Below are positions 9,110 through 32,557 of a stretch of DNA of 64,000 nucleotides, in pieces. Origin of the DNA: Cytophagales bacterium. Lineage in GTDB: Bacteria; Bacteroidota; Bacteroidia; Cytophagales; 172606-1. Numbering within the stretch: position 1 is the stretch's first letter; every line of letters starts with the position of its first letter. Under the pieces are notes generated by a model. The model was given only the letters and a program-made list of their open reading frames with translations, was not told the origin of the DNA and made no database searches. The translations under genes were made by a program, and so were the position numbers. The stretch is taken from NCBI GenBank assembly GCA_030446715.1, contig JAUJMU010000001.1, forward strand, positions 783,297 through 847,296, given 5' to 3'.

Positions 9110-9154
9110 AAATTGACAATTGAAAATTGATAACTGACAATGGAAAATGACAAC
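9110..9154. repeat. Stuttered GACAATTGAAAATTG element
   Basis: About 45 nt made of variants of one word: TTGACAATTGAAAATTGA, then TAACTGACAATGGAAAATGA. It lies upstream of the isomerase/epimerase start and downstream of the Uma2 gene. No clear inverted partner is present, so this may be half an element of the same general kind as the other stuttered repeats here. Confidence 0.6.
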
Positions 9155-9240: not shown

Positions 9241-9822
9241 TTATTCCGGCCAGTCTATTTTATGAAAAATGGCTTTCAGCGAAATCTGGTTGCCGATGGT
9301 TTGCAGCCGGATGGTGGCGTCCATTCCTTCAGTGAGGGAGTACAGCCAGTGGTGGTCATCCTGCCGGAAGTACGTTTCGATGACGGGTTCAGTCTGGGAA
9401 ACCAGCACGTATTCGCGGAAAGTTGGCAAGCTTTGGTACTTTTTAAATTTGCGGCCCCGATCATAAGATTCAGTGGAGTCGGAAAGAACCTCCACGATCA
9501 GCACCGGGTTCCGGATCACGTCCTGCCGGCCGGCGGCAAATTCGGGCCTGCCGCAGATGACCATTGCATCCGGATACACGTATGATTTGTGCTCCGCTAC
9601 ATCCACTTTTACATCGCTGCCGACGGCGGTGCAGTTTTTAGAATCCAGTAATTCCTGCAGTCTCCGCAAAAAATTACCGGCAATGAGCCCGTGCCGGTAG
9701 GTTCCGCCGGACATGGCAAAGACCTCGCCGTTTTCGTACTCGTGTTTCTCTTCGGCAGTCTCCTCAAAAAGCAAATACTCTTCGGGGGAATAAAATTTTT
9801 TATCAGGCAGCGCATCTCCCAT
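9241..9822 (-). CDS. Uma2 family (PD-(D/E)XK-fold) protein
   Basis: A 193-residue Uma2/DUF820 protein of the restriction-endonuclease-like superfamily. Family landmarks: YSPEEYLLFEE near the start, KHEYENGEVFAMSGGTYRHGLIAGN, YVYPDAMVICG (core Asp), NPVLIVEVLSDSTESYDRGRKFKKYQSLPTFREYVLVSQ (core Glu and Lys-Tyr), all in the expected order. These genes are often present in multiple copies in Bacteroidota and cyanobacteria and their function is not established. It stands alone here between two stuttered repeats, with no restriction or toxin partner visible. Confidence 0.88.
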   Translation of the reverse strand: MGDALPDKKFYSPEEYLLFEETAEEKHEYENGEVFAMSGGTYRHGLIAGNFLRRLQELLDSKNCTAVGSDVKVDVAEHKSYVYPDAMVICGRPEFAAGRQDVIRNPVLIVEVLSDSTESYDRGRKFKKYQSLPTFREYVLVSQTEPVIETYFRQDDHHWLYSLTEGMDATIRLQTIGNQISLKAIFHKIDWPE

Positions 9823-9886
9823 AACAGATCCGGTTTACTCAAATATACCAAAACCTGATTTCGGATAAACTCCTAAAAAGTCACCA

Positions 9887-10016
9887 GTTGTAAGTCGTTA
9901 GTCGTAAGGGGCAGTGCCGGGAGGTGGCAGTTGGCAGCAGACACGCAGCCAGTGAATGACGCCGGTGTTTACGTACGCCAAACCCCTTACGACTTACGAC
10001 CGGCAACTTACGACTT
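9887..10016. repeat. Stuttered GTCGTAAGT hairpin element, copy 1
   Basis: Left arm (about 9889-9910) and right arm (about 9983-10015) are built from GTCGTAAGT words; GTCGTAAGTCGTAAGGGG on one strand pairs with its complement on the other side of a loop of about 70 nt. The element ends directly at the stop codon of the SDR gene. A 25-nt stretch that continues from GTCGTAAGTCGTAAGGGG into TTTGGCG is identical, on opposite strands, in this copy and the copy at 31152-31260. Confidence 0.8.
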
Positions 10017-10775
10017 CTATTGCGCCGTAAACCCGCCGTCAACCGCAATGGCGGCACCGGTTACAAAAGTGGCATGGTCTGAGGCCAGCCATAGAATGGC
10101 CCCGGGTACTTCTTCCGTTTTGCCCATGCGCTTCATGGCGTGCATATTGGAAATGGCCTGATGCAACTGGTCGTCGTGATCCAGGCCGGCGTTCTGAAGC
10201 ATCGGCGTCTCGATGAAGCCGGGACACACGGCGTTGACCCGGATGCCGCGCGGGGCATATTCAAGGGCGGCAGTCCGGGTGAGGCCGATTACGCCGTGCT
10301 TGGCCGCCACGTAACCCGGAGAGCCCATAAATCCGACCAGCCCCAGTACGGACGACACATTGATGATGCAGCCTCGTTTGGCCTTTAACATTTCCTGCAG
10401 TTCGTACTTCATGCACAGGAACACTCCCGTGAGGTTCACCCCGATCACCTTGTGCCATTCCTCCTCCGGATGCTCATCCGTATGGACAGCAGCGCCACCG
10501 ATACCGGCGTTGTTGACGGCGATGTCAATTTTACCAAACTTCTCCACCGTCTGCCGGATCATCGCCTGCACGCTGCCGCTGTCGGCTACATCGCAGGTAA
10601 CGAAGAGGCTGTCCTGGCTTTTGGCTTTGATTTCTTCCAGTGCGGCCTTGCCATCTTCTTCCGAAACGTCGGCGGCTACTACTTTGGCACCTCTTTCGGC
10701 AAACGCAAGGGCGGCGGCCTTTCCTATGCCCGAAGAGGCCCCGGTAATCAGTACTACTTTGTCTTTGAAATCCAT
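10017..10775 (-). CDS. SDR family NAD(P)-dependent oxidoreductase
   Basis: A 252-residue classical short-chain dehydrogenase/reductase. The cofactor motif TGASSGIGKA is at residues 10-19, the structural NNAGIGG motif near 88, and the catalytic Ser-Tyr-Lys in NVSSVLGLVGFMGSPGYVAAKHG (Ser near 140, YxxxK near 153-157). The C-terminal AAIAVDGGFTAQ is typical. Substrate is not predictable; glucose 1-dehydrogenase and 3-oxoacyl-ACP reductase-like proteins share this pattern. Its stop codon abuts a stuttered hairpin. Confidence 0.9.
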   Translation of the reverse strand: MDFKDKVVLITGASSGIGKAAALAFAERGAKVVAADVSEEDGKAALEEIKAKSQDSLFVTCDVADSGSVQAMIRQTVEKFGKIDIAVNNAGIGGAAVHTDEHPEEEWHKVIGVNLTGVFLCMKYELQEMLKAKRGCIINVSSVLGLVGFMGSPGYVAAKHGVIGLTRTAALEYAPRGIRVNAVCPGFIETPMLQNAGLDHDDQLHQAISNMHAMKRMGKTEEVPGAILWLASDHATFVTGAAIAVDGGFTAQ

Positions 10776-10917
10776 ATAGTGGTGGTTGAAGGTAAATGCT
10801 GTCCACTTCTACGGAGAAAAGAGCGTCGGGATAACAGGTAGTGAAGAAGTTTATGCGGGAAACAAAATTATGGCCTCTGTCGCTTTCAGGGCTAACGGGT
10901 GCAGGACAAGTTTAGTT

Positions 10918-10972
10918 TCCCGCAGATTGAACCGCAGATATGCGCGGATGAAAAGCAGTATCTGCGAGAACT
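10918..10972. repeat. Stuttered CGCAGAT element, copy 2 (shortened)
   Basis: The left arm resembles the element at 5884-5980 (CGCAGATTGAACCGCAGAT then ATGCGCGGAT), but only the outer end of the right arm (ATCTGCGAGAAC, 10960-10971) remains, so it looks like an internal deletion that kept the closing stem. It lies in the 281-nt gap upstream of the SDR gene; I saw no gene in that gap. Confidence 0.75.
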
Positions 10973-11056
10973 ATCCTCAGCGAAGCTAAATAATCAATGT
11001 CTTTGAAAACTTGTCTTATACCCAGGCTAACCGCTGACAAGTCAAAAGCCACTCCC

Positions 11057-30184: not shown

Positions 30185-31150
30185 ATGAAAGCAGTCCAGA
30201 TTTTTGAGTACGGCGGTCCGGAAGTAATGCAGTACCGCGAAGCAGACGTGCCCCAGCCGAAGGCCGGAGAAGCGTTGGTACGGATAAAAGCGGTTGGCGT
30301 CAATTTCATTGATGTGTACCACCGCACCGGCCGGTACCCCGGCAACCTACCCTTTACGCCGGGAATGGAAGGAGCCGGCGTGGTGGAAGCTGTAGGGCCG
30401 GAAGTAACGGAGGTGAAGCCCGGCGACCGGGTGGCGTACGCCATGCAACCGGGCAGCTACGGAGAGTACACAATCGTGCCGGCTGCTAAACTGGTGCCTG
30501 TTCCCGGCAACGTTGATGACCAGGCGGCAGCGGCCGTTATGCTGCAGGGCCTGACGGCGCATTACCTCTCGTACAGCACGTATCCGGTCCGCAATGGCGA
30601 CACAGTATTGGTGCACGCTGGTGCCGGTGGCGTGGGGTTGCTGCTGACGCAGATGGCAAAGAAACTGGGGGCTCAGGTGATCACAACCGTGTCCGCGGAA
30701 GAAAAAGCCGAACTGTCCCGGCAAGCCGGTGCCGACCATGTGATCTTATATACGCAGGCCGACTTTACGGCGGAAGTAAAGAAAATCACACAGGGGAAAG
30801 GTGTACAGGCTGTGTATGATTCGGTGGGCAAAACCACTTTTGAGGGGAGTCTTAATTGCCTGCGTCCGAGAGGCTATCTGGTGCTGTTCGGGGCGTCCAG
30901 CGGACCGGTGCCGCCGCAAGACCCGATGGTGCTGATCAAAGGTTCTTTTTTCCTCACCCGGCCGACACTGGCCCACTACGCACTTGACCGTCAGGAGCTG
31001 CTGAGCCGGGCCGGGGATCTGTTCCGGTGGCTGGAAGATGGCAGCCTGCACCTGCGGATCGAACACAAGTACCCGCTTTCGGATGCCGCCCAGGCCCACC
31101 GTGACCTGGAAGCCCGGGCTACTACCGGTAAGTTGCTGTTGTTGCCGTAG
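30185..31150 (+). CDS. NADPH:quinone reductase / zinc-independent MDR oxidoreductase
   Basis: A 321-residue medium-chain oxidoreductase of the quinone reductase (QOR) type. N-terminal GroES-like domain (VNFIDVYHRTGRYP, FTPGMEGAGVVEAVGPEV, VKPGDRVAYAM), then a Rossmann domain with the nucleotide motif VLVHAGAGGVGLLLTQMAKKLGA near 145-167 and YDSVGKTTFEGSLNCLRPRGYLVLFGASSG. The zinc-binding residues of alcohol dehydrogenases are absent. It reduces quinones with NADPH. Its stop codon is followed at once by a stuttered hairpin. Confidence 0.92.
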   Translation: MKAVQIFEYGGPEVMQYREADVPQPKAGEALVRIKAVGVNFIDVYHRTGRYPGNLPFTPGMEGAGVVEAVGPEVTEVKPGDRVAYAMQPGSYGEYTIVPAAKLVPVPGNVDDQAAAAVMLQGLTAHYLSYSTYPVRNGDTVLVHAGAGGVGLLLTQMAKKLGAQVITTVSAEEKAELSRQAGADHVILYTQADFTAEVKKITQGKGVQAVYDSVGKTTFEGSLNCLRPRGYLVLFGASSGPVPPQDPMVLIKGSFFLTRPTLAHYALDRQELLSRAGDLFRWLEDGSLHLRIEHKYPLSDAAQAHRDLEARATTGKLLLLP

Positions 31151-31151
31151 A

Positions 31152-31260
31152 TCAGTCGTAAGTCGTAAGGGGTTTGGCGGGAGGAAACCGGGGCGTCAGT
31201 CCCTGCCAACTGCTTACTGCAAACTTACGACTGGCGACTTACGACTCTGGACTTACGACT
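31152..31260. repeat. Stuttered GTCGTAAGT hairpin element, copy 2
   Basis: GTCGTAAGTCGTAAGGGG on the left (31155-31172) and three ACTTACGACT words on the right (about 31223-31260) flank a loop of about 50 nt. It starts 2 nt after the quinone reductase stop and ends 17 nt before the converging amidohydrolase stop, so it could serve both genes as a 3'-end structure. It is a sister of the element at 9887-10016. Confidence 0.8.
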
Positions 31261-31276
31261 ACCACTGCCATCAAGC

Positions 31277-32557
31277 CTACTCTGACTTATAGACTACGCC
31301 GTCCTTCATCACGAAGGTGACGTTGCGCAGCAGACCAATGTCCTGTAAGGGGTTGCCGTTCACTGCCACGAGGTCGGCTAGTTTGCCGCCTTCCACGGAG
31401 CCCAGCTGATCCCGCATACCCACCAGTTCGGCAGCCACTACAGTAGCCGACCGGATGGCTTCCATCGGCGGCATCCCGGCCTCGACCATGAACCCGAATT
31501 CCAGCGCATTCTTGCCATGCACCGATACGCCCGAATCCGTGCCGAAAGCAATCTTTACGCCAGCTTTGTAGGCTTTGGCGAAAGTGCCCTGAATCTGCGG
31601 GCCCACCGCCAGTGCCTTGGGCACCACCACCGGTGCGTAATACCCCGCTACTTTGGCCGAGTCAGCTACGGTGCGTCCGGCAAGAATGGTGGGTACGTAA
31701 TAGGTGCCGTTTTTCTTGCACAACGCAATGGTTTCATCGTCCATGTAGGTGCCGTGCTCGATTGAAGTCACGCCTGCCCGTACCGCCCGTTTCATGCCTT
31801 CTGCGCCGTGGGCGTGGGCGGCTACCGTAAAGCCATAGTCTTTGGCAGCCTGCACCAGTGCCCGTAGTTCTTCTTCCGTAAACTGCGGGCCGGAGCCGTC
31901 TTTGGCCAGACTCAGCACGCCGCCCGTAGCGGTGATCTTGATCAGGTCAACACCGTCTTTGTACCGCTGGCGTACTGCTTTGCGGCAGTCATCCGGTCCG
32001 TTGACCACGCCTTGTTCTGGACCCGGATCACCCATGAGGTCGCGGCGGTAGCCGTTGGTGGGGTCGCCGTGGCCGCCGGTAGTGGCAATGGTTTTGCCCG
32101 AAGTGAAAACGCGCGGCCCCGGCACGTAGCCTTTGCTGATGGCGTTGCGCAGGGCAATGTTGGCTCCCGTACCGCCAAGGTCGCGTACGGTCGTGAAGCC
32201 TGCCATCAGCGTGGTGCGGGCGTGTTTGGCGGCTTCCAGCGCCAGATCGGCAGGGTTTTGCGTGAACCGGTTGATGGCACCGCCCTTGCTGGTTTCGCCT
32301 TCCAGGTGTACGTGCATGTCCATCAGGCCGGGCATTACGGTTTTGTTTTTGAGGTCAATTACTTTGTCGCCGGTGCCCGGGGCCGTGTAGCCGCGGGCCA
32401 CCCGCACGATGCGGTTGCCATTGACAACGACCGTTACCTGGGAAAGTGGCTGGTTTTGCACGCCGTCAATCAGGCTGCCGCAGTGAAGGAGGGTTTGCTG
32501 GGCAAGGGAGGGGAACGCCAACAGAAAAAATAAGGCTGCAGTGTAGAATTTGTGCAT
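31277..32557 (-). CDS. Amidohydrolase family protein, exported
   Basis: A 426-residue metal-dependent amidohydrolase (imidazolonepropionase/prolidase-like branch) with a signal peptide [20 protein letters not shown], hence periplasmic. Metal-site segments: [12 protein letters not shown] (HxH), [11 protein letters not shown] (Lys), [15 protein letters not shown] (His), [10 protein letters not shown] (His), and [13 protein letters not shown] (Asp). Preceded by a small SnoaL-like gene on the same strand. Substrate likely an X-Pro or acyl-amino-acid type compound, but not certain. ATG at 32557 chosen for the signal peptide over 32683. Confidence 0.9.

Follow-up and report, generated by a model that had tools for sequence, protein, structure and literature searches.

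Hairpins with heptameric arms form a dispersed repeat family adjoining stop codons in a Cytophagales genome

Two intergenic hairpins that adjoin stop codons within one stretch of a 6.43 Mb Bacteroidota genome (G000) raise the question of whether they are copies of a mobile element with a preference for gene ends, as a first-pass annotation had proposed, or a feature belonging to the genes that they follow. The window analyzed here, a stretch of 64,000 nucleotides, covers positions 783297–847296 of contig C18 (G000:C18:783297-847296); all gene calls used here, in the window and elsewhere, are dicodon-based predictions and not annotation. Both hairpins were confirmed and lie far above chance expectation (Table 1). 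Element 1 occupies most of the spacer between the genes at 9241–9822 and 10017–10775, which are both located on the minus strand. It folds into a single hairpin of −62 kcal/mol (z approximately −5 whichever strand is folded), and its inverted arms of 34 nt (9878–9911 and 9983–10016) are 79% complementary. Element 2 fills the spacer between the convergent genes at 30185–31150 (+) and 31277–32557 (−); its arms of 16 nt (31154–31169 and 31224–31239) are 88% complementary, and its fold has a z-score of −2.6 to −2.7. As the first-pass annotation had stated, both hairpins abut a stop codon and share an exact 25-nt stretch. They lie on opposite genomic strands, yet each is oriented in the same way towards the gene that it abuts, which corrects the earlier view that their orientation to the neighboring gene differs. 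A search of the window against Rfam found no RNA family above the gathering score. The gene adjoined by element 1 carries the motif VNAVCPGFIETPM, which suggests that its product is an SDR-type oxidoreductase.

Table 1. Positions of the two hairpin elements and of adjoining features in the window.
Feature	Position	Strand	Remark	Basis
Element 1, heptad-armed hairpin	9878..10016	-		arms, fold, profile match
TAG stop of gene 10017-10775	10017..10019	-	directly adjoins element 1	sequence and gene call
Gene neighboring element 1	10017..10775	-	ortholog G001:C626, 77% nucleotide identity	
25-nt block GTCGTAAGTCGTAAGGGGTTTGGCG in element 1	9976..10000	-		read directly
Element 2, heptad-armed hairpin	31151..31262	+		sequence, arms, profile match, fold
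TAG stop of gene 30185-31150	31148..31150	+	directly adjoins element 2	sequence and gene call
25-nt block GTCGTAAGTCGTAAGGGGTTTGGCG in element 2	31155..31179	+	exact match to element 1	read directly
Convergent gene	31277..32557	-	stop ~15 nt from far arm of element 2	

The arms had been described as repeats of a 9-nt word. This word was rejected because the period is 7 nt: the repeat unit is GTCGTAA, with the arm variants GTCCAGC, GTCGCCA, and GTGGTAA, and the 9-mer consists of this unit plus two bases. The sequence GTCGTAAGT occurs six times in the window (0.21 expected), a count attained in 0 of 100 shuffles, and GTCGTAAGTCGTAAG is over-represented in the whole genome, with nine occurrences against about 0.01 expected at random by simple arithmetic. 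As the copies are also intergenic, neither of the two conditions under which the first-pass annotation would have been refuted holds. A reversed control pattern matched three times; it spells GAATGCTGAATGCTG, which is also a heptad word of G000, so that this control is not neutral. In another genome of the same phylum (G157), the reversed pattern GSTGAATGCTGAATGCTG was found 20 times and represents the heptad word AATGCTG, which is present also in G000. A spread of the exact word across the phylum was rejected, since GTCGTAAGTCGTAAGTSG was present in only one of 247 sampled genomes, there as a single tandem array. Elsewhere, the two-arm pattern was detected in Saprospiraceae SJ15, Lewinella, the uncultured Cytophagales AVDCRST_MAG56, and one Ruminococcaceae MAG. 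In the latter (RUG13427, Firmicutes; L158, 6909–7047), a GTCGTAA heptad hairpin is located approximately 40 nt past a stop codon, which is possibly a cross-phylum occurrence or a binning error.

A covariance model was constructed from ten copies and matched G000 82 times, mostly on both strands, at no fewer than 40 distinct places. In the congener AVDCRST_MAG56 (G001; contig CADCTQ010000684.1) it gave 92 matches with both strands counted, indicating a sister family of similar scale, and profile searches of the 1.05 Mb contig C18 yielded 13 members. The elements have a length of about 110–170 nt and form a hairpin over their whole length, in which 7-nt repeats make up the arms together with a lineage-specific inner block (GGGGTTTGGCG in G000, TGGGATCGGGAAGG in G001) and the core is diverged. 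In G001 the layout is AGTCGTAAGTCCAGC-GTCGTAAGTCGTAAG-TGGGATCGGGAAGGAA, followed by the core and then the reverse complement. The arms are near-identical across dozens of unrelated loci of this genome (93–100% identity between loci, vs. 52–72% in the core), and the inner consensus is a palindrome of 120 nt with a folding energy of −90 kcal/mol; the best copy (L042) reached −109.5 kcal/mol (z = −16). The subtype of the outer heptads matched between both arms in 18 of 23 cases (p = 0.013). Since the G001 loci were fetched by exact match to GTCGTAAGTCGTAAG, the conservation of this sequence partly reflects data selection; the inner block TGGGATCGGGAAGG was absent from the search word, and its conservation thus is no selection artefact. 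The consensus core is palindromic, unlike the individual cores, which as a set were not significantly so (z below −2 in 3 of 28). The conserved arms showed no compensatory pairs in RNAalifold. Terminal inverted repeats of the kind found in MITEs are present. Target-site duplications (TSDs), whether of the TA type or other, were rejected because none of 32 elements had one of at least 3 nt, and T…A ends occurred on both sides in only four of the 32.

The placement of the family relative to genes is highly uneven. None of the 40 classifiable clusters in G001 lies inside a gene; 25 are situated in tandem, 13 in convergent, and two in divergent spacers (convergent vs. divergent, p = 0.004), which agrees with the earlier statement that the hairpins are not decayed genes. 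The median gap is 5 nt to the stop codon and 68 nt to the next start, and between tandem genes the element lies nearer the stop side in 23 of 25 cases (p = 2e-5). Of 51 stop codons in G001, 15 overlap the element and use its bases, either in a TAG composed of T plus AG or as the TAA of GTCGTAA. Of the 13 members on C18, 11 have a stop codon no more than 16 nt away on at least one side; orientation across the contig is mixed. The hairpin and its 3′ position are as in an intrinsic terminator, and a U-run after the hairpin was absent in the inspected copies of G000 and G001. A U-run is present in the cores of the SJ15 elements: enclosed by GTCGTAA arms and bordered by runs of A and T on either side, these cores are terminator-like and resemble a bidirectional terminator. 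A role of the heptads as an all-frame stop is an idea only: as 7 is coprime to 3, three TAA-bearing units would close every reading frame, but some heptad words, such as GTTATTC, have no stop codon on the sense arm.

The stop codons orthologous to those with elements were compared in a small sample of distant species (67–87% DNA identity in the flanking genes). Past the same stop codon as element 1, G001:C626 carries a perfect 48-nt palindrome (ACAGTCGTAAG-TAGAGACGCGG...CTTACGACTGT; z = −11.7), a hairpin with the same GTCGTAAG arms as element 1 and a different, REP-like core. The sites orthologous to element 2 contain a hairpin of CAGTNNG-type heptads in G001:C360 and one of AGTCCAT type in G002:C47, and those orthologous to C18:869134 contain a TAGAGACG-type palindrome in G001 and another heptad-phased hairpin in G002 (C57). 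C18:624675 and L043 both have GTCGTAA elements and share the flanking sequence TTTTAAACA, and elements are likewise present at L042 and L008, which flank one and the same gene, although L008 had been fetched for its element. No element was found at the ortholog of C18:385480 in G001 or at that of C18:880248 in G002. A second, GTAG-tagged and REP-like palindrome, TAGAGACGCGATnnATCGCGTCTCTA, is sometimes enclosed as core by a hairpin with GTCGTAAG arms and sometimes replaces such a hairpin at an orthologous stop codon; it was observed at G001:C626 (L164), at L003, L051, L055, and L072, and at the ortholog of C18:869134 in G001:C312. Among these distant congeners, sites were occupied, replaced, or empty, and no clean pair of an empty and a filled site was found. 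As judged from these sequences, orthologous sites show persistence with replacement, which does not in itself prove a mechanism, and their frequent occupation suggests age or hot-spots and not recent hopping. What is supported of the proposed mobile gene-end element is its dispersal, its intergenic location, and its very strong preference for 3′ ends; present mobility finds no support in TSDs or in an empty/filled pair. The palindromes at the stops orthologous to those of element 1, element 2, C18:869134, and C18:624675 would also be expected of a vertically inherited module owned by the host, a bidirectional terminator or mRNA 3′ stabilizer at fixed stop codons whose position and hairpin are kept while its sequence drifts or is homogenized by gene conversion between sites. 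The SJ15 core with its A and T runs between heptad arms fits such a module as well, but the two empty orthologous sites, the lack of a U-tract in most elements of G000 and G001, and the species-wide identical arms, which require copying between loci, make it a rather unlikely explanation of the family.

We lean, with some reservation, towards a REPIN/MITE-like palindromic repeat family that was copied in trans and retained at the 3′ ends of genes. This reading builds on features observed directly, namely the dispersal, the full-length hairpin, the conserved arms around a diverged core, the placement at stop codons, and the absence of TSDs. Identical arms at unrelated loci require the copying of whole hairpins, and the missing TSDs together with conserved ends and a variable spacer fit a REPIN-like single-strand route (PMC3116915). 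A machinery acting in trans would copy whole hairpins to new places, making the elements mobile, and copies would persist where they are harmless or useful, that is, at gene 3′ ends. Retained copies would supply a stop codon and a stable 3′ hairpin to transcripts on either strand, with the hairpin acting as terminator or exonuclease barrier, and the number of 7-nt units could shift by slippage. At the RNA level, the hairpin probably terminates or protects transcripts at their 3′ ends. Alternatively, it may exert stop-proximal effects on ribosomes by analogy with the REPs of E. coli, which at a distance of up to 15 nt from the stop codon are said to stall ribosomes, according to work cited in PMC12306157.

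Slippage could also be the sole origin of the repeats, which would then be heptameric simple repeats of local, non-mobile origin that became palindromic through template switching. Polymerase slippage has already been proposed for heptameric repeats (PMC4692102), a period of 7 recurs in 3′-end spacers with many unrelated words, and the arrays in Lewinella (L160), SJ15 (L161), and G009, a genome of the same order but another family, are long and unequal. This leaves unexplained, however, how the non-repetitive block TGGGATCGGGAAGG and the 120-nt consensus came to be shared by dozens of unrelated loci, and we regard a purely local origin as improbable. That the family is a true REPIN mobilized by a RAYT of G000, an association the first-pass annotation had raised, is most improbable: the architecture, the spacer divergence, the TSD absence, and the gene-end placement agree with it (PMC3116915, PMC3733652) and a RAYT-like Y1 transposase gene exists (L011), but no element and no GTCGTAAG word was found within 1.5 kb of the two Y1 genes of G000 or their counterparts in G001 and G002. 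Y1 genes were found in G007 as well, and one of them has a heptad element at a distance of about 0.6 kb, which is explicable by chance.

Among known systems, REPINs consist of conserved inverted ends and a less conserved spacer that form a long hairpin in intergenic DNA (PMC3116915), and REPs near convergent genes lie less than 20 bp from the 3′ end and can provide a TAG stop codon (PMC3733652). The family resembles the GTAG and CGTC families of REPIN/REP elements in its inverted conserved ends, variable spacer, intergenic location, high copy number, and gene-end placement, but differs by its arms of tandem 7-nt units, the lack of a linked RAYT, and a word that varies between related genomes. 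DDE-type MITEs have similar terminal inverted repeats, whereas their target-site duplication is wanting here. For YPAL, ERIC, NEMIS/Correia, and RUP, TSDs or TA ends are reported, and these elements are not built of heptads. YPAL inserts just after stop codons. All four are, like the present elements, intergenic long hairpins of about 100–170 bp (PMC2229807). Heptameric simple repeats have been described as TAACTGA in Beggiatoaceae, cyanobacteria, and Bacteroidetes, GGGAATC in Xanthomonas, and GGGGA(C/T)T in Nostoc; those of Xanthomonas often form inverted pairs and lie closer to the end of the upstream gene (PMC4692102, PMC4679880), and their place but not their sequence is kept between species (PMC4692102). 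Such STRR-type repeats likewise are tandem 7-nt units in intergenic DNA, but most of them form plain tandem arrays or G-quadruplexes or are located near start codons, whereas the present arms surround a conserved inner block and a core, all within a single long hairpin that abuts stop codons. In the open-access literature, to which the survey was confined, no description of the family or of stop-abutting heptad-armed hairpins was found. The family seems to be a further, new relative of the small repeat elements already known and not a new type of system: the gene-end preference is already published for REPs, and what is new is the heptad grammar and the turnover of words at fixed sites. The literatures on heptameric repeats and on REP/REPIN hairpins are thereby joined. 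The role of the heptameric intergenic repeats of Xanthomonas, cyanobacteria, Beggiatoaceae, and a few Bacteroidetes has so far been without agreement; function becomes testable now that heptads are seen as the arms of stop-codon hairpins and other words have been found to re-occupy orthologous sites.

The 7-nt period extends beyond this family. In the spacers of C18, exact 8-mers recurred 171, 226, and 105 times at lags of 7, 14, and 21 nt and mostly 2–50 times elsewhere, and the base-match excess at lags 7 and 14 was found in convergent and tandem but not in divergent spacers. Heptad lags were detected in 72 of 621 stop-bearing vs. 6 of 136 divergent spacers (p = 0.012); a shifted-lag control gave 14–35 spacers in all. 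The words in these spacers vary (AATGCTC, AATTTTG, GTTATTC, AGATGGC, GAGTGAG, AATTGAC), and the same layout occurs with AGTCGGC in G009 and with AGTCAGA-like words in G002. One tentative and rather doubtful generalization is that the 3′-end hairpins of many Bacteroidota, with sporadic cases in other phyla, keep position, palindrome, and period while each lineage exchanges the word completely (AGTCGTA, AGTCGGC, AGTCCAT, AATGCTG, and GTTATTC, among others). If true, this would imply a so far undescribed machinery that reads or copies DNA or RNA at stop codons in steps of 7 nt.

Long AGTCGGC heptad hairpins were observed in G009 at L227, L238, L241, L244, and L250, and at L227, L241, and L247 the array begins directly at a stretch of N, which looks like a break in the assembly. 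Other dispersed palindromes and repeats on C18 are TATACTACGGTACATT, CAGGACTTTCTCAAAA, AAGCGTGGACGCTT, and AAACCTTCCGGGTTT, with example sites at 452.9–453.1 kb, 74301, 274412, and 440167. Within the window, an intergenic array of AATTGAN-type heptads (AATTGACAATTGAAAATTGATAACTGACAATGG) at 9111–9149 has several matching places in G001, and a dispersed repeat at 10896–10995, upstream of the gene adjoined by element 1, has many in G002.
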